Positions 1,134-8,895 of a stretch of DNA of 64,000 nucleotides are shown piece after piece. A program made the translations under genes and the position numbers. A model generated the notes under the pieces. It ran no database searches and was not told the DNA's origin. It saw only the letters and a program-made list of their open reading frames with translations. Location of the stretch: positions 2,773,001 through 2,837,000 of the forward strand of contig NZ_CP061177.1 of the NCBI RefSeq assembly GCF_017355405.1, written 5' to 3'. This DNA is from Roseomonas haemaphysalidis. Lineage in GTDB: Bacteria > Pseudomonadota > Alphaproteobacteria > Acetobacterales > Acetobacteraceae. Within the stretch, counting starts at the first letter, position 1. Each line of letters opens with the position of its first letter.

Positions 1134-1373
1134 TCAGGCGGTGATCCACAGCAGTGCCCAGGCGAACAGCCAGCCGGCGAGGATGCCCATGATGCCGCCG
1201 GCCAGCCCCTGCTCGACCAGCGGGTGCACCCGCAGCCGAAGCGCCGCCGCTGCCGCGCGGCGGAGCCACCAGCGAGGGGATGCCCGCGCCACCTGCCATG
1301 AAGCGCGGGCCGGCCAAAGCGGCCGATGCCGCAGCGGGGGGGTAGCGAGGGAGAAGGCAGGTTGCTGCTGCAT
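1134..1373 (-). CDS. Possible small membrane protein
   Basis: Open frame of 79 residues whose last 27 residues look like one transmembrane helix (GIMGILAGWLFAWALLW). The first half is Arg/Ala/Pro-rich and unremarkable, so the real start may lie further in. There is no clear Shine-Dalgarno before the ATG at 1373. A weak TTGACG sits about 32 bases upstream on the same strand in a locally AT-richer stretch. I cannot assign a function. If this is not a gene, 1057-1469 is a 413-base gap with nothing else recognisable in it. Confidence 0.35.
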   Translation of the reverse strand: MQQQPAFSLATPPLRHRPLWPARASWQVARASPRWWLRRAAAAALRLRVHPLVEQGLAGGIMGILAGWLFAWALLWITA

Positions 1374-1469
1374 GAGAACATCATGAACATAACCAGAACG
1401 TTGCCGTCAAGCGTCGTTTGAACCCTTTTTGTTCTCGCTTCCGTGGGTGTGGCATGGTTGCCGCGGCGG

Positions 1470-2804
1470 CTAGGCGACCTCGCGCAACGTCGCGTCCAGC
1501 GCATCGAGGAAGCGGTCGGCATGCTCGCGCCCGAAGACCAGGGGCGGCCGGATCTTGAGCACGTTGGCATGGGGGCCGGAGGCGCTGATCAGCACGCGGC
1601 GCTCCCGCAGCCCGTTCACCAGCTTGGCCGTCGTCGCGCCATCTGGAGCACGTGAGGCGCGGTCCCGCACCAGTTCCACGCCGATAAACAGCCCCGCCCC
1701 GCGCACGTCCCCGATCGCCTCGTGGCGCAGCGCGAGTTGGCGCAGGCCGGCCTGCAGATAAGCACCGGTATCGCGCGCGTTGCTGACCAGCCCCTCGCCC
1801 TCGATCACCTCCAGCACCGCCTGCCCCACCGCGCAGGACACCGGGTTGCCGCCAAAGGTGTTGAAGTAGCGGGTGCGGTCCCCGAAGCCTTGTAGGATCT
1901 CCGGCCGCGCGACCATGGCGGCAATGGGGTGGCCGTTGCCCATCGGCTTGCCCATGGTCACCAGATCCGGCTCGATGCCATGGCGCTGGAAGCCCCACAT
2001 GGACGCGCCCGTGCGGCCGAAGCCAGGCTGCACTTCGTCGGCGATGAACAGCCCGCCCGCTTCGCGGATCGCCGCCACCGCCGGCGCCAGAAAGCCTGCC
2101 GGCTCGGCGAAGACGCCGTCGGACGAGAAGATGGTATCCACCAGCAGCGCGGCGGGCTGGATGCCATGTGCGCGCAGGTCCGCAGCGGCATCGCGCACGG
2201 CGGCGGCGAAGGCCTGCCCGACATCCGCGCCACCGGCACGAAACTGGTCCGGCGCCGGGATGGTGCGGATGTTCGGCCCCGGCGTGACGCCGGCACCGAG
2301 CGAGGGCGACATCTCGGAGATCACCGCCGTCACGCCGTGATAAGCGAGTTGCGTGACGATGAAGCCGCTGCCGCCGGTGTGGCTGCGCGCCACGCGATAA
2401 GCGAGGTCGTTGGCCTCGCTGCCCGTGCAGGTGAACATCACCTGGCTGAGGGCGGGCGGAAAGTAACCCAGCAGCTTCTCGGCGTAGTCGAGGATGACGT
2501 CGTTGATGTAGCGGGTGTGGGTGTTCAGCGTCGCCGCCTGGCGGGACAAGGCCGCCACGACGTGCGGGTGGCAATGCCCGACGCTGGCGACGTTGTTGTA
2601 GACGTCGAGATAAGCGTTGCCGTCCGGGTCATAAAGCCACACGCCCTCGCCGCGCACGAAGTGCACGGGGTTGGCGTAGAACAGGCGGTAGGCCGGGCCG
2701 AGCAGCTTCTGCCGGCGCTCGATCAGCGCGCGCTCGCGCGGGGCGACGGCATTGGTCGCCCGGGCGTCGAAGGCATTGATCATGGTCGGCGTGCTGGCGG
2801 TCAT
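1470..2804 (-). CDS. Class III PLP enzyme, phospho-lyase/aminotransferase (PHYKPL/ETNPPL-like)
   Basis: A 444-residue fold-type I PLP enzyme of aminotransferase class III. The PLP lysine is Lys286 in GKPMGNGHP, preceded by the cofactor aspartate in FIADEVQPGFGRTG. The N-terminal pattern YLDVYNNVASVGHCHPHVV and NTHTRYINDV is what I recognise from the branch containing ethanolamine-phosphate and 5-phosphohydroxylysine phospho-lyases rather than ordinary transaminases. In that branch the substrate is a phosphorylated amino alcohol, cleaved to aldehyde, ammonia and phosphate. The start overlaps the upstream kinase gene (ATGA), which supports a kinase-then-lyase pathway. Plain omega-transaminase activity remains possible. 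Confidence 0.85.
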   Translation of the reverse strand: MTASTPTMINAFDARATNAVAPRERALIERRQKLLGPAYRLFYANPVHFVRGEGVWLYDPDGNAYLDVYNNVASVGHCHPHVVAALSRQAATLNTHTRYINDVILDYAEKLLGYFPPALSQVMFTCTGSEANDLAYRVARSHTGGSGFIVTQLAYHGVTAVISEMSPSLGAGVTPGPNIRTIPAPDQFRAGGADVGQAFAAAVRDAAADLRAHGIQPAALLVDTIFSSDGVFAEPAGFLAPAVAAIREAGGLFIADEVQPGFGRTGASMWGFQRHGIEPDLVTMGKPMGNGHPIAAMVARPEILQGFGDRTRYFNTFGGNPVSCAVGQAVLEVIEGEGLVSNARDTGAYLQAGLRQLALRHEAIGDVRGAGLFIGVELVRDRASRAPDGATTAKLVNGLRERRVLISASGPHANVLKIRPPLVFGREHADRFLDALDATLREVA

Positions 2805-3844
2805 GGGCGGGCACTTTCAGCGCAGGCAGCGTGGAACAGGGCGGCGGCCTGGTCGCGTGGAATGGCGGCGAGCCGTTCCAGCCCCGCCCAGGACCGCGGG
2901 TAGTTGCGCAGGATATAGGCGGCGTTGTCCGGCTGCCGCTCCGCCCGCCAGCCACTGATGGCGACGCTGATGACCCCGCGCACGGCGATCAGGTCGAACA
3001 GGATGTCCAGCTCCTCCGGCAGCAGCGGGCAGATCGCGTGATAGCCGGCGACGATCTCGGCCGGACCGGCCAGCGGATGCCCCTCGGCCTGCACGTGATA
3101 GGCGCAGGCGGTGGCGAGGTCCTGCACCAGCGGTGCGCACACCATGTCGCCGAAGTCGATGACTCCGGCGATGCGGTCGTCCGCCACCGCGTCGGCCAGC
3201 ACGTTGTGCGGGTTGAAGTCGTTGTGGATCACCTGCCTACGCAACCCCCGCATGGCGGGCACCGCCAGCCGCTCGAAGGTATCGAGCAACCCTTCGGGCA
3301 CGGCGCGGCGGGCGGGGTCCTGGATATGCGCCAGCAGCGGCCGCACCCGGGCGGCGTGCTGGATGTCCCACAGCAGCACATGGTCCTGCGCCGGGTGGCT
3401 GAAGCCGCGCAGCGCCAGCCCCACCCGCGCCAGCAGGGCGCCCAGGGCGCGGCGCTGCGCGGCGCCGGGGGTGGCCAGGTGCAGCGGCCGCCCGGGCAGC
3501 CAGGAATACACGCGCACCAGCCGCGAAGGCTGGCCCGGAACCTGCCACGGCACGACGAGCGGCAACCGCGCGCGGGGCACAGGCAGCGTGGGGTCCGCTT
3601 CGGCCAGGTGCAGCAGCGCCCGCCCCTGGAAGTCCGTGACCAAGGAGTCTTCGGCGGGATGCACAACCTTCAGCACGTATTCGCCGCCATCCGAGGCAAG
3701 CAGATGGAAGTTGCGGTCGCGCTCGCCGGTCAGCGGCTTGGCGGTGGCCTGCAGCCCGAAATGCGCGGCCGCGAGGGCTTCGGCATCGGCGGTGGAGGCA
3801 GGCGGCGGCGGTGCATCCAGCACCTCGCCCAATGCCATACTCAT
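2801..3844 (-). CDS. APH-fold small-molecule kinase, hydroxylysine-kinase-like
   Basis: A 347-residue kinase of the aminoglycoside phosphotransferase/choline kinase fold. Visible are ERDRNFHL (nucleotide loop, residues 41-48), Lys59 in YVLKV, the catalytic-loop pattern HNDFNPHNV with Asp209, and the metal-binding DFGD at 230-233. The ERDRNF and IDFGDM signatures match my memory of the AGPHD1/hydroxylysine kinase family, which in many bacteria is fused to a class III phospho-lyase. Here the two are separate but coupled by ATGA overlaps at both ends. It likely phosphorylates an amino alcohol that the downstream enzyme then cleaves. The exact substrate is unknown. Confidence 0.82.
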   Translation of the reverse strand: MSMALGEVLDAPPPPASTADAEALAAAHFGLQATAKPLTGERDRNFHLLASDGGEYVLKVVHPAEDSLVTDFQGRALLHLAEADPTLPVPRARLPLVVPWQVPGQPSRLVRVYSWLPGRPLHLATPGAAQRRALGALLARVGLALRGFSHPAQDHVLLWDIQHAARVRPLLAHIQDPARRAVPEGLLDTFERLAVPAMRGLRRQVIHNDFNPHNVLADAVADDRIAGVIDFGDMVCAPLVQDLATACAYHVQAEGHPLAGPAEIVAGYHAICPLLPEELDILFDLIAVRGVISVAISGWRAERQPDNAAYILRNYPRSWAGLERLAAIPRDQAAALFHAACAESARP

Positions 3845-6135
3845 GCCGGCTCCAGGATCTGTGGCGGCTGCAATACGGCGACCGCCGGCAAGGGTCCGTC
3901 AAAGGCCACCACCTCCACCAGGCACGACTGGGCGGCGCATCCCTGGCCCAGGCGCGAAGTGCCGACGTCCTGCGTCAGCACATTGGGGTTGCCGTGGCGG
4001 TCCAGCCCGTCTTCGCCCGGGTCCCACCACGCGCCCGTGGCCATCGCCACCACGCCGGGGCGGATGCCCTCCGAAAGCTTCAGGCCCGCCAGCACGGCGC
4101 CGCGATCATTGAACATCCGCACGACGGCGCCATCCGACAGGCCGCGGGCGGCGGCGTCATCGGGATGCATCAGCATGGGCTCGCGGCCCTGGACCTTGCT
4201 GGCCTGCGCCACCCGCCCCTGGTCCAGCTGGCCATGCAGCCGCGTGGCTGGCTGGTAGGACAGGAGATGCAGCGGAAAACGTCGGGCCTGCTCCGCGCCC
4301 AGGTACTCGCGCGGCGCGTGCCACTCGGGGTGCCCACCGATCTCGGCGTAGCCGAAGCTGGCGATGGTTTCGGAAAACAGCTCCACCTTGCCGGAAGGCG
4401 TGTTCAGCGGATGCGCCGCCGGGTCACGCGCGAAGTCGGAAAACAGCACGAAGTCCTGGTCCGGACGCGGCGTTTCCACGAAGCCTTCCGTCCAGAAACG
4501 GTCGAAGTCGGGTGCCTCGAACCCCTGGCGGGCGCAGGCCGCGCGCCAGCGCTCGTAGAGGTGGCGCAGCCACGCGGCTTCGTCGCGCTGCTCGGTGAAG
4601 CGGTCGCGGAAGCCCAGGGCGTCGGCCATGTCGGCCAGCATGTCGTGGTCATTGCGCGCTTGTGCGAGCGGCGGAATCGCCTGGTGCATGGCGCGCACGA
4701 AGCGGTCGCGGGACGAGGAGCCGATGTCGTTGCGCTCCAGCGTCGTGGTCGCCGGCAGTACGATGTCCGCATGGCGCGCGGGGGCGGTCCACCATGGTTC
4801 CTGCACCACCACCGTATCCGCACGGCACCAGCCGCGCAGCAGGCGGTTGAGGTCCTGGTGGTGGTGGAACGGGTTGCCGCCGGCCCACCAGATCATGCGG
4901 ATGTCCGGCAGCGGGATGTCACGGCCGTTGTACTGCATCACCTCGCCCGGCCGCTCCAGCAATTCCGTCACACGGGACACCGGGATGGCCACGCCGGCCG
5001 GGTTGCGCGTGGCGGGCAGCGACACGGAGGGCAGTTCCCAGCGCGGCGTGCCCATTCCGTTCAGGCTGCCATAGCCGAAGACCACGCCCTGCCCCGGCTG
5101 GCCGATGCCGCCCAGCATGGCGGCCAGTGCCACCAGCATCCACCAGGGCTGCTCGCCATGCTCGGCGCGCTGGATGGACCAAGTGGCGGTCAGCATGGTC
5201 GGCGCGGCGCCGGCTTCCAGCGCCAGGCGGCGGATGGTGGCAGCCGGCACCTCGGTGACAGCGGAAGCCCATTCGGGCGTTTTCGGCACGCCATCCGCGT
5301 CGCCCAGGATATAGGGCCGCAGCTTGTCCCAGCCGGTGCAGTGGGTGGCCAGGAAGCTCCGGTCCTCCAGCCCCGCCGCCAGCAGCACATGCGCCATGCC
5401 CAGGAGCAGCGCGGTGTCCGTGTTGGGGCGGATCGGCACCCATTCGGCATCCAGGAAGTCCGGCGTATCGCCCTTGAAGGGCGACACGTTGACGAAGCGC
5501 ACGCCGGCTTCCGCCACCTGCTTCAACCAGGGCACGTATTCATGCGCGCCCGCGCCGCCGGCGGTGACCAGCGCATTCTTCAGCGGCAGCCCGCCAAGGC
5601 AGAACATGAGCTTCGTGTGCTTGGCGATGCTGGGCCAGTCCGTCACCTGCCCCTGCATGATGTCGTTGGTGCCGACGATATGCGGCATCAGCGTCATGCC
5701 GGCACCGTAGGAATAATTCGTCACCTGCGTGGTGTAGCCGCCACCGAGACCCAGGAAGCGCTGCAACTGGCTCTTGGCATGGTGGAACCGCCCGGCCGAC
5801 GACCAGCCATAGGACCCGCCCATGATCGAGGCATGGCCGAACGCGCCGCGGACCCGTTGCGTTTCCTCCGCCACCAGCCGGATGGCCTGGTCCCACGGCA
5901 CCGGCACGAAGGCGTCGCTGCCGCGAAGCGATCCGCGCCGCTCGCCTTTCAGCCAGCCGGAACGCACATAGGGGCGGTCGATCCGCACGCGGGAATGCAC
6001 CGCGTCCGGCACGGACTGGATCAGGGCGCCTGGATTGGGGTCCCGCGCGAAGGGTCGCACGCCCGTGACGCGCCCGTTCTCCACCACGGCTTCAAAGGCG
6101 CCCCAGTGGGCGGAATGCGGCTTGAGCTCGGTCAT
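3841..6135 (-). CDS. Molybdopterin oxidoreductase, cytoplasmic BisC/TorA-like
   Basis: A 764-residue bis-MGD enzyme of the DMSO reductase family. Ser108 in GGSYGWSS aligns with the serine that ligates molybdenum in DMSO, TMAO and biotin sulfoxide reductases. There is no Tat signal and no N-terminal [4Fe-4S] cysteine motif, as in cytoplasmic BisC. The C-terminal cofactor domain (HPDDAAARGL, VVRMFNDRGAVLAG) is present. Expected chemistry is reduction of an S- or N-oxide. The stop overlaps the kinase start (ATGA), an unusual partner. DUF2585 lies 21 bases upstream on the same strand. No dedicated electron donor or molybdenum chaperone gene is adjacent. Confidence 0.88.
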   Translation of the reverse strand: MTELKPHSAHWGAFEAVVENGRVTGVRPFARDPNPGALIQSVPDAVHSRVRIDRPYVRSGWLKGERRGSLRGSDAFVPVPWDQAIRLVAEETQRVRGAFGHASIMGGSYGWSSAGRFHHAKSQLQRFLGLGGGYTTQVTNYSYGAGMTLMPHIVGTNDIMQGQVTDWPSIAKHTKLMFCLGGLPLKNALVTAGGAGAHEYVPWLKQVAEAGVRFVNVSPFKGDTPDFLDAEWVPIRPNTDTALLLGMAHVLLAAGLEDRSFLATHCTGWDKLRPYILGDADGVPKTPEWASAVTEVPAATIRRLALEAGAAPTMLTATWSIQRAEHGEQPWWMLVALAAMLGGIGQPGQGVVFGYGSLNGMGTPRWELPSVSLPATRNPAGVAIPVSRVTELLERPGEVMQYNGRDIPLPDIRMIWWAGGNPFHHHQDLNRLLRGWCRADTVVVQEPWWTAPARHADIVLPATTTLERNDIGSSSRDRFVRAMHQAIPPLAQARNDHDMLADMADALGFRDRFTEQRDEAAWLRHLYERWRAACARQGFEAPDFDRFWTEGFVETPRPDQDFVLFSDFARDPAAHPLNTPSGKVELFSETIASFGYAEIGGHPEWHAPREYLGAEQARRFPLHLLSYQPATRLHGQLDQGRVAQASKVQGREPMLMHPDDAAARGLSDGAVVRMFNDRGAVLAGLKLSEGIRPGVVAMATGAWWDPGEDGLDRHGNPNVLTQDVGTSRLGQGCAAQSCLVEVVAFDGPLPAVAVLQPPQILEPA

Positions 6136-6156
6136 GGGTGGAAACCTATCGCTCCT

Positions 6157-6723
6157 TCAGCCAGCCTGCCAGTTGCGCACCGCATCCGTCGGCCACACCA
6201 GCATCAGCACGTTCAGCGTCAGGTTGTCACGGATCGCCAGCAGCGCGGCAAGTTCCAGGGCCACCACCAGCACCACGCCAGCCCAGGCCGGCAGCCGCGC
6301 CGCCAGCGCGAAGCCGAGCAGCATCGCGCCGACATCCGACATGGAATTAAGCACGCTGTCGCCGTTGTAGCCGAGCGCGATGGTGGCATCCCGGTAGCGG
6401 GCGATCACCTGCGGGGTGTTTTCCACGATCTCCCACGCCGCTTCCACCAGTGTCGCCGCCACAGCGCGGGCCGGCAGGCCATGGCGCCGCATCAGCCAAT
6501 GCGCGGCACCATAGAACAGCAGCCCGTGCACGACGTGGGACAGCGTGTACCAGTCGGCGACATGCTGCGATCCCTCGGAGCCGTTCGCCACCCCGTACCA
6601 GAGCTTGATGCTGCCGCATTCGCACACCGGCACGCGGCCCATCGCCAAAAGGACCACCACCATGGCGGCGAGGATGCCCAGAATGACCGCGGTGGCGGCC
6701 GGCGGGGACAAACGAGTTGGCAT
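6157..6723 (-). CDS. DUF2585 (UPF0314) family membrane protein
   Basis: A 188-residue protein with an N-terminal hydrophobic helix and further helices near the middle and C-terminus. The central block PVCECGSIKLWYG, then ADWYTLSHVVHG and EAAWEIVENTP, is the signature I associate with the DUF2585/UPF0314 family of alphaproteobacteria, whose function is unknown. Conserved Glu/Asp/His residues lie at helix ends. It precedes the molybdoenzyme by 21 bases and is probably the first gene of that operon. Divergent from the O-antigen-ligase-like gene across 112 bases. Confidence 0.8.
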   Translation of the reverse strand: MPTRLSPPAATAVILGILAAMVVVLLAMGRVPVCECGSIKLWYGVANGSEGSQHVADWYTLSHVVHGLLFYGAAHWLMRRHGLPARAVAATLVEAAWEIVENTPQVIARYRDATIALGYNGDSVLNSMSDVGAMLLGFALAARLPAWAGVVLVVALELAALLAIRDNLTLNVLMLVWPTDAVRNWQAG

Positions 6724-6835
6724 GGCAGGCTCCCGGCCGGTTCGGCCAAGCCAGCGCTAACACGCCCGGTTGCCGATTTCACCCCGGCGCCTGTTTGCCT
6801 TACAGCACTGTGGCCACTCCGCCGGGATCTGCGCC

Positions 6836-8074
6836 ATGAACCAGCCTGCCGACCGTCTCGACTGGCGCGCCCCCAGCCTGCCGCTGATGGCGGGTGCCGT
6901 GGTCGCCCCCTTCGCCGCCGTGCTGCAATCCAAGGCGATGACGCCGATCGGGCTGCTGGCGCTGGTGGCCTGCGTCCTGCTGGCCCGCTGGCGGCAGGGC
7001 CACTGGCCCTGGCCGCGGGCGGTGACCGGGTGGGCGGGCGTGGCGCTGGGCGGCTGGGCTGCGGTCACCGCGCCGGGAGCCATTGATCCCCATCGCAGCC
7101 TGTCAGAGGCCGCGGCGCTGCTGGCCATGGTGCTGCTGGCATCCGCCGCCGCGCGCGCCGTGGCCGGGGATGCGCCCGCGCAGCGCCGGCGGCTCGGCCA
7201 CGCCGTGATGATCGGGTTGGCGATCGGGCTGCTGACCGCCCTGGCGGACCACCTTTCCGGCAATGCCATCCGTGCCGGCGTGCGGGGCTTGACGGTGGCA
7301 CCGGAAAGCCTCGCCTTCGGGTTGAAGCCCGCGGCGTCGGTCATGGCGCTGCTGCTGCCCCTCGTCGCGGGGGCCGACCTGCCGGCGCGCTGGCGCGGCG
7401 CAGCGCTGGCCGCCGGGCTGGTGCTGCTGCTGGTCCTGCCGGGTGACACGGCCAAGCTGGCGGCCCTGGCCGGACTGGGCGCGGCTGCCGTGGTTGCGTG
7501 GCGGCCTGGCATGGCGCGCGTGCTGGCGGCGGTGCTGGCCGTGGCCATGCTGGCCACGCCGGTGCTTCTGGGCCCCACCATCACGGCCATCGGGCCCAGG
7601 ATCGAACAGCTGCCACCCTCCGGCATCCACCGGCTGATGATCTGGGACTTCGCGCTCGGCCGCGCGGCGGAAAAGCCGTTGAAGGGCTGGGGCATGGAAT
7701 CGTCCCGCAGCATCCCGGGCGGCGATGCGCGGCCGGACGACGCGCGGCTCGCGCGTCTGGGCATCACGGACACGTTTCTACGCTCATGGTTCGCGCAGCC
7801 GCACCTGCGCCTCCTGCCCCTGCACCCGCACAACGGGCCGCTGCAGATCCGCTTGGAACTGGGTTGGATTGGCAGCGCGCTGGCGGCGCTGACGGTGCTG
7901 CTGCTGGGCTTCGCGGCGCCGCGCTGCGCGGTGCCGGCGGCGGCATCGGGGGCGCTGGCGTCTGGCTTCGTGACGTTCTTCGCCAGCTTCGGCGCTTGGC
8001 AGAACTGGTGGCTGTGCGCGGCGGCGATGGCACTGGCCATCGCCGCCGGCATGACGATGCCCAGGCGGCGTTAA
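6836..8074 (+). CDS. O-antigen ligase/polymerase-like membrane protein
   Basis: A 412-residue polytopic protein with about ten to twelve hydrophobic segments and a large periplasmic loop in the C-terminal half. That loop carries RLMIWDFALG followed by PLKGWGMESSR and HPHNGPLQIRLELG, the arginine and HxHN patterns of the Wzy_C/O-antigen ligase family. Members polymerise or attach surface polysaccharide at the periplasmic face. No glycosyltransferase or polysaccharide genes are nearby, so whether it acts as ligase or polymerase is open. The ATG at 6836 is preferred over an upstream in-frame ATG (6770) because homology starts there. Its TAA shares bases with the convergent creatininase stop. Confidence 0.78.
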   Translation: MNQPADRLDWRAPSLPLMAGAVVAPFAAVLQSKAMTPIGLLALVACVLLARWRQGHWPWPRAVTGWAGVALGGWAAVTAPGAIDPHRSLSEAAALLAMVLLASAAARAVAGDAPAQRRRLGHAVMIGLAIGLLTALADHLSGNAIRAGVRGLTVAPESLAFGLKPAASVMALLLPLVAGADLPARWRGAALAAGLVLLLVLPGDTAKLAALAGLGAAAVVAWRPGMARVLAAVLAVAMLATPVLLGPTITAIGPRIEQLPPSGIHRLMIWDFALGRAAEKPLKGWGMESSRSIPGGDARPDDARLARLGITDTFLRSWFAQPHLRLLPLHPHNGPLQIRLELGWIGSALAALTVLLLGFAAPRCAVPAAASGALASGFVTFFASFGAWQNWWLCAAAMALAIAAGMTMPRRR

Positions 8075-8895
8075 GCCGGCACCTTGGACGCGAAATGCGC
8101 GGAGAAGTCCGCGACGATCTGCGTCAGCTTGTCCACCAGCACCGCGCCGGTTTCAGCCGAGCAGAGCTTCGGATCGCCCTTGGCGACTCCCTGGTGGTAG
8201 GTGTCGTCATATTCCATCGGCAGGCCGATCTCGGCGCCCTGGAAGCTGGCGGCGCCCAGCCCGGTATAGGGCAGGCCCAGGACGCTGTCGTTCTTCAGCG
8301 GCTGCGCCTCCGGGATCATGTCGGTGCGCAGCAGTTCCGGAAACAGGTGCAGGCCGATGCTGGTCAGCGGGTCGGCGCCGTGGCCGGACACCGCCTTGGC
8401 CTTCTCCGCGCCGATCAGCCCAGGCAGCAGGCCGTAGCTGATGCGCCACAGATACAGGCTCGGCATCACGATCTTCTTTTCGGTCCACAGCGCGCGGGCC
8501 ACCTCGGCGATGGGGCCGACATTGCCGCCGTGGCCGTTGATGACGATGACGCGCGTCAGGCCGTTGCGGTGCAGGCTGGCCACCATGTCGGTGATGACGC
8601 TGATCAACGTCGCCTGGCTGATGGCGATGCCGCCGACCATCGGGCCGAACCAGTCGGCGCCACCGAAAGGCAGCACGGGGGCGACGAAGGTGGGCGTGCC
8701 GGCGGCGGTGGCGCGCAGCGCGGCCAGCTCCGCCACCTTCTCGGCCAGGAGGTAGTCGCCCATCGGCGCGTGCGGGCCCTGGTCCTCGTGGCTGCCCATG
8801 GGCAGCAGGATGATGGGGTTCTTCGAGAAGGCCTCGCGCCCCTCCCCGCCGGTCAGCGTGCCCATGTGGACCTTGGGCGAAGTCAGTGCAGCCAC
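8071..8895 (-). CDS. Creatininase-family amidohydrolase
   Basis: A 274-residue member of the creatininase family of metal-dependent hydrolases acting on cyclic amides, N-formyl compounds or peptides. Recognisable are LPMGSHEDQGPHAPMGDY near residue 35 and the metal-site loop INGHGGN near residue 120. In canonical creatininase the first block reads E-Q-H-G-P-H; here it is E-D-Q-G-P-H, so one usual metal-ligand histidine is a glutamine. It is the last gene of a peptide-type ABC operon, 20 bases after the ATPase, suggesting it processes the imported substrate. True creatinine activity is unlikely on context alone. Confidence 0.85.
   Translation of the reverse strand: MAALTSPKVHMGTLTGGEGREAFSKNPIILLPMGSHEDQGPHAPMGDYLLAEKVAELAALRATAAGTPTFVAPVLPFGGADWFGPMVGGIAISQATLISVITDMVASLHRNGLTRVIVINGHGGNVGPIAEVARALWTEKKIVMPSLYLWRISYGLLPGLIGAEKAKAVSGHGADPLTSIGLHLFPELLRTDMIPEAQPLKNDSVLGLPYTGLGAASFQGAEIGLPMEYDDTYHQGVAKGDPKLCSAETGAVLVDKLTQIVADFSAHFASKVPA

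Follow-up and report, generated by a model that had tools for sequence, protein, structure and literature searches.

A hydroxylysine kinase and the ammoniophospholyases of 5-phosphohydroxylysine and phosphoethanolamine were reportedly described by Veiga-da-Cunha in 2012. The corresponding genes are named HYKK/AGPHD1, PHYKPL and ETNPPL. For the aminoacetone (RMM/Aut) microcompartment, a kinase acting on (S)-1-amino-2-propanol is said to have been described by Mallette and Kimber in 2018. The locus of this microcompartment has an aminoglycoside phosphotransferase (APH)-family phosphotransferase and an aminotransferase-like gene for an amino alcohol (PMC6620236). In Herbaspirillum rubrisubalbicans, genes Hrubri_0242-0245 are annotated in PMC13275390 as haloacid dehalogenase, 'hydroxylysine kinase', '4-aminobutyrate aminotransferase' and AsnC/Lrp, respectively. 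E. coli BisC is an example of a cytoplasmic sulfoxide reductase, according to PMC12096835. The locus presented here lies in a stretch of 64,000 nucleotides (the window; contig NZ_CP061177.1, positions 2,773,001 to 2,837,000) of a genome which, going by its nearest named relatives, is that of a Roseomonas-type member of the Acetobacteraceae. On the minus strand of the window, at a GC content of about 70%, genes for a DUF2585 protein, a molybdoenzyme, a kinase and a class III pyridoxal phosphate (PLP) enzyme follow one another. The kinase and the PLP enzyme (hereafter also the lyase) belong to one widely conserved unit, and the locus very probably consists of two independent modules standing side by side, namely this kinase-lyase pair and an unrelated oxide reductase. 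The four genes, with their coordinates in the window, are as follows.

6157..6723, minus strand: DUF2585 protein, upstream of the molybdoenzyme (PF10755, 251.5 bits)
3841..6135, minus strand: molybdoenzyme, 764 residues (PF00384/PF01568/PF18364)
2801..3844, minus strand: APH-fold small-molecule kinase, hydroxylysine-kinase-like, 347 residues (PF01636, 100.9 bits)
1470..2804, minus strand: class III PLP enzyme, predicted phospho-lyase type, 444 residues (PF00202, 263.5 bits over residues 47-439)

The four-base overlap ATGA is present at the molybdoenzyme/kinase junction and again at the kinase/PLP enzyme junction. The end of the DUF2585 gene is separated from the start of the molybdoenzyme gene by 21 bp, with AAGGAG, a sequence resembling a ribosome-binding site, at the DUF2585 stop codon. 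The initial annotation of this DNA had described the same four genes with both overlaps and DUF2585 upstream, and all of them lie where it had placed them.

Kinase and predicted phospho-lyase pair

Comparison with solved structures (the best 60 of 190 PDB sequences) gave the phospholyase 5g4i as best relative of the PLP enzyme, with 404 bits over residues 23-441, followed by the ethanolamine-phosphate phospho-lyase 6tor with 369 bits over residues 27-440. As the next solved enzyme scores only 196 bits, the protein is predicted to be a phospho-lyase rather than a transaminase. We take 5g4i to be A1RDF1 of Arthrobacter, a name for which a literature search gave nothing.

The kinase possesses HxDxxxxN and DFG, the catalytic motifs of the APH fold, at positions H207, D209, N214 and D230-F231-G232, all of which are invariant in an alignment of 28 rows, in which H207, N208, D209, N211, P212, N214 and I229-D233 do not vary at all. 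Several of its database relatives are named 'hydroxylysine kinase' (among the best 120 of 922). No solved structure was related to it by sequence at 0.001, and a profile search gave weak structure matches, the best at 4.5e-06, to aminoglycoside phosphotransferases, homoserine kinase and protein kinases (among the best 60 of 371). Because these matches are weak and to varied kinases, the substrate of the kinase cannot be read from solved structures.

Both proteins match the 1015-position model PRK06148, the kinase its N-terminal part (positions 9-341, 283.5 bits) and the lyase its C-terminal part (positions 572-1011, 517.6 bits). They resemble the PRK06148/PRK06149 fusions (NF004799, NF004800) in matching the two ends of the model, and differ from them in being split into two genes without the middle region, for which reason both miss the full-length cut-off of PRK06148 (NF004799; 1128 bits); no match above that cut-off was found genome-wide. 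The two genes are thus predicted to be a split form of the PRK06148 fusion and, together, a kinase/phospho-lyase pair of the hydroxylysine/ethanolamine type. Like HYKK/AGPHD1 and PHYKPL/ETNPPL, they combine an APH-family kinase with a class III PLP enzyme of predicted phospho-lyase type, and would act by the same kind of two-step route; unlike those, the pair of the window is bacterial and consists of two genes.

Among the loci of kinase relatives examined (the best 80 of at least 484; Alpha-, Beta- and Gammaproteobacteria for the most part), 78 of 80 carry a relative of the lyase on the same strand downstream of the kinase, the exceptions being L067 and L070. In a set of 96 loci both genes were present in 88, and in 83 of these the lyase could start either in overlap with the end of the kinase gene or no more than 20 bp from it; the closest possible in-frame start was chosen for this, which biases towards short gaps, and a few genomes are counted twice. 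A spacing of 29 bp was found in two of the 88 (L014 and L096, from one genome), while in three others (L047, L082, and L089) kinase and lyase form a single fused frame. With these frames and the PRK06148 model, the earlier statement that fused forms exist holds, as does its assignment of the two genes to a kinase/phospho-lyase pair. The kinase appears to diverge faster than the lyase, with identities of 63% against 82% to L011 and 60% against 80% to L013.

A number of families recur on the same strand near the pair in the 80 loci, each neighbour cluster being named from one representative. These include ArgE/DapE deacylases (16 loci), histone-deacetylase-like deacetylases (12 loci) and carbamoylase-type hydrolases (5 loci), such amide-hydrolase-type neighbours occurring in 25 of the 80 loci when combined. 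Their recurrence suggests that an acylated compound or a peptide is the precursor from which the amine is set free. Parts of dipeptide-type transporters lie near the pair in 13 loci (clusters named by eye). Loci of Pseudomonas and Betaproteobacteria have, among other neighbours, haloacid dehalogenase (13/80), an AsnC regulator (13/80) and aldehyde dehydrogenases (11/80), each of which is also found in a few other groups. By their annotation, the Herbaspirillum genes Hrubri_0242-0245 would include the same pair, and the Betaproteobacteria and Pseudomonas loci share their dehalogenase and AsnC neighbours; in contrast, the pair of the window adjoins neither dehalogenase nor AsnC, and the Herbaspirillum operon has no molybdoenzyme. 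The pair of the window also resembles the RMM/Aut locus in pairing an APH-family kinase with an aminotransferase-like gene, but no microcompartment genes were seen beside it.

In Pseudomonas and Azoarcus/Aromatoleum-type loci, the pair lies near genes of the ornithine-cyclodeaminase and threonine-dehydratase families (L065:6895-8890; L068, L071, L072, and L078). Both representatives from L065 score below the cut-offs for ectoine EutC/EutB. These neighbours may hint at the substrate of the pair. A search of open-licence papers found no bacterial substrate for the kinase-lyase pair in the literature.

Molybdoenzyme

The molybdoenzyme has the N-terminus MTELKPHSAHWG, in which no Tat (twin-arginine translocation)-type leader is apparent by eye. 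Its best solved relatives are dimethyl sulfoxide (DMSO) reductases (667 bits). Residues Y109, W111 and S142 align with Tyr114, Trp116 and Ser147 of the Dor/Tor/Bis enzymes, Ser147 being presumably the molybdenum ligand. The equivalents of all three are retained in 13 Acetobacteraceae rows, the window included and the row of the second copy in the genome omitted. Tyr114 and Trp116 are common to S-oxide reductases according to PMC5122715, which names the molybdenum ligand as an aspartate, unlike the serine assumed above.

With 928 bits the protein does not reach the curated cut-off of TIGR00509 (bisC_fam; 1017.55 bits), so the earlier label 'BisC/TorA-like' is apt, where plain 'BisC' would not be. 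Its description as cytoplasmic was likewise reasonable, there being no visible leader. Another molybdoenzyme of this group is encoded in the genome (G000:C1:2034009-2036282, G000 being the genome of the window); it is 49% identical, has no obvious leader and is also under that cut-off (948 bits). Both belong to a clade of 14 rows (support 100/100; tree calculated without L090), from which E. coli BisC, TorZ and TorA are excluded. In family, in the Tyr114/Trp116/Ser147 matches and in lacking a leader, as BisC does, the enzyme is like the Dor/Tor/Bis reductases (DMSO reductase 1dms), yet it is set apart from E. coli BisC, TorZ and TorA by an identity of 38-42%, its separate clade and its score under the BisC-family cut-off. 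We regard it as a probable cytoplasmic member of the molybdopterin S-/N-oxide reductases (Dor/Tor/Bis group), and probably as a sulfoxide reductase.

Orthologues of this enzyme (at least 57% identity) were identified in 83 of 249 Acetobacteraceae genomes. For their neighbours, 56 loci were examined, namely a choice from these 83 genomes, mostly from the top of the matches listed, plus L010 (P. ludipueritiae), L012 and L013; the latter three came by way of the kinase scan and so favour a molybdoenzyme-kinase link. The flanks of L111-L149 extend about 5 kb per side or less. Neighbours in the 56 loci and in eight genus relatives were counted by tblastn, as the gene caller had missed the molybdoenzyme in 5 of the 56 and PhoX in several. 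The usual partner is a PhoX relative, which in 38 of the 56 loci follows in the same orientation, at most 700 bp downstream, and in some overlaps the molybdoenzyme gene; the neighbour families were named from one representative each. In 33 loci (including L099, L101, and L102) a PRK06105-type aminotransferase lies divergently just upstream, which is not so in the window. This is also a class III enzyme; it is a different gene from the lyase, since it is only 27-31% identical to the latter and its representative exceeds the PRK06105 cut-off (716.7 against 517 bits). A kinase is near the molybdoenzyme in 7 of the 56 loci, or 4 of 53 when L010, L012 and L013 are left aside, and a DUF2585 gene in five. 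The pairing of molybdoenzyme and PhoX is better conserved than the contact of molybdoenzyme and kinase, and has no obvious explanation (an example is L010:6022-9905).

Gene order and co-occurrence

The initial annotation proposed that the molybdoenzyme supplies or clears an oxidised substrate for the kinase-lyase route. As a single pathway, an amino alcohol in its N- or S-oxide form would first be reduced by the enzyme within the cytoplasm, and the kinase and lyase would then degrade the reduced amine. We consider this very improbable. In its favour, all genes are on one strand with ATGA at both junctions, and the genes form a collinear block, PhoX included, in L010 and L012. Co-occurrence in the 249 family genomes leans the same way (both present in 20, molybdoenzyme only in 63, kinase only in 25, neither in 141; kinase relatives at E <= 1e-30 in 45 genomes; one row of the table, G120, is a partial match), with an odds ratio of 1.79 that is not significant (Fisher p = 0.084, uncorrected for descent). 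However, 63 of the 83 molybdoenzyme genomes have no kinase, the molybdoenzyme has other and commoner partners, and its proximity to the kinase is confined to one genus. Of the 20 genomes that have both, only 4 (G000, G107, G239, and G016), all of the genus of the window, carry the two on a single contig at most 20 kb apart; in the remaining 16 they are on different contigs, mostly of draft assemblies, or more than 100 kb apart.

The kinase loci give the same picture. In flanks of up to 10 kb per side, 76 of the 80 showed no molybdoenzyme, and the four that have one are all from Roseomonas/Pseudoroseomonas. A conserved three-gene operon was not found in unrelated lineages among the 80 kinase loci and the 249 family genomes, and direct contact of molybdoenzyme and kinase was seen in the window and in no further locus examined. 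The neighbourhood check that the initial annotation had set in advance for the trio thus largely fails, as the three genes touch in the window only and looser proximity ends at the genus; its proposal of a substrate link is left unsupported.

In those loci of the genus that contain the pair and extend far enough, it has the molybdoenzyme on one side and a branched-chain-type transport operon on the other; G205 and G162 have molybdoenzyme and PhoX near the same operon without kinase or lyase. Six relatives have both molybdoenzyme and kinase. In L010 the molybdoenzyme is overlapped by PhoX, with kinase and lyase following about 70 bp further on, and L012 is similar, PhoX thus standing between molybdoenzyme and kinase in these two. 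In the other four, opposite-strand genes intervene, which also argues against a single pathway; among them are a sodium/proton antiporter in L013, a YjbR gene in L090 (G107), which lacks PhoX, a TctA transporter in L091 and a relative of the latter in L092. PhoX follows the molybdoenzyme in six of the eight genus relatives (L010, L012, L013, L091, L093, and L094) and not in L090 or L092, and no close copy of it was found in the genome of the window, where the best matches are 39-42% identical. In a molybdoenzyme tree that includes L090, the window groups with L010 and L090 (support 95/92), which are about equally close to it, with no firm order among the three.

Two probably independent modules at one locus

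The distribution of the molybdoenzyme, its gene order and its commoner partners (PhoX and the PRK06105-type aminotransferase) are the reasons for regarding it as a separate module, and we hold it highly likely that the pair and the reductase are independent of one another. The kinase would phosphorylate an amino alcohol, or an amino acid bearing a hydroxyl, at the hydroxyl group (5-hydroxylysine, ethanolamine or 1-aminopropan-2-ol type), and the PLP enzyme, to judge by its family, would then eliminate phosphate and ammonia, leaving an aldehyde or semialdehyde that would be oxidised further. The molybdoenzyme would reduce free methionine sulfoxide, perhaps, or a similar S-oxide. From the gene order of relatives, the lineage of the window may have lost what stood between the two modules (PhoX, possibly with further genes), which would have brought the molybdoenzyme stop against the kinase start, and the resulting genes may share a transcript without sharing a pathway. 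Such a loss is the simplest account of the overlap, and that of PhoX was possibly common to L090.

Several points weigh against this reading. The ATGA overlap is clean and held in frame, which leaves room for co-transcription and a degree of regulatory advantage. The collinear and close arrangement of molybdoenzyme, PhoX, kinase and lyase is present in more than one strain, and the co-occurrence, short of significance as it is, leans to association. The genomes are mostly drafts, in which genes on separate contigs could be nearer than they appear. As L090 has the opposite-strand YjbR gene in place of PhoX, the event behind the contact could differ from the one suggested. Lastly, the substrates named for both modules are putative.

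It is also conceivable, if unlikely, that a chemically unrelated reductase and amine pathway are co-transcribed as a chance operon, both being useful in the same stress or nutrient condition. The overlaps make a single transcript likely, and no promoter-like sites were found in 1200-7000, by a scan poorly suited to a genome of 70% GC. Set against this are the four terminator-like sites which the same scan gave, a number near the shuffled mean of 2.2, and the confinement of the touching order to this genome among the loci examined. A further proposal is that within the group formed by P. ludipueritiae, G107 and the strain of the window the cytoplasmic reductase was recruited to the pair, so that an amine N-oxide or S-oxide would be reduced, phosphorylated and eliminated by three enzymes which are co-translated in this strain; this would amount to a new catabolic route if true, and we regard the chance of it as very slim. 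The two-module reading carries a caution, in that overlapping genes in one strain do not prove a shared pathway, the conserved unit here being the two-gene pair. There is also a gain for annotation, as this pair is widespread in Proteobacteria and can be labelled as a plain aminotransferase and a kinase.

Neighbouring genes and minor features

Two other genes of the window were considered beside the four.

8071..8895, minus strand: creatininase-family amidohydrolase, neighbour (PF02633)
1134..1373, minus strand: small protein of about 79 residues, just 3' of the lyase, in which a single probable membrane segment is visible by eye

We rejected a connection between the pair and the creatininase gene upstream. 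Relatives of the latter occur in 59 of the 249 family genomes and are on the contig of the kinase only in G000 and G107; a creatininase is near the kinase in L010 also, and within L010-L109 the gene was confined to L010, L090 and the locus of the window itself. The gene probably stands outside the kinase-lyase pair. A link to the upstream peptide transporter was likewise rejected, as its binding protein is at most about 30% identical to most of the best 14 of 31 matches, the exception, besides the self-match, being L090 at 81%.

No structured RNA or tRNA was found in the window. Relatives of the small protein at 1134-1373 are present at the matching places of L010 and L090 (among the clustered loci). 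Further downstream, at 850-1056 on the minus strand, there is a candidate exported protein of 68 residues with a TTG start, which has a leader-like N-terminus followed by an Arg/Pro-rich run.

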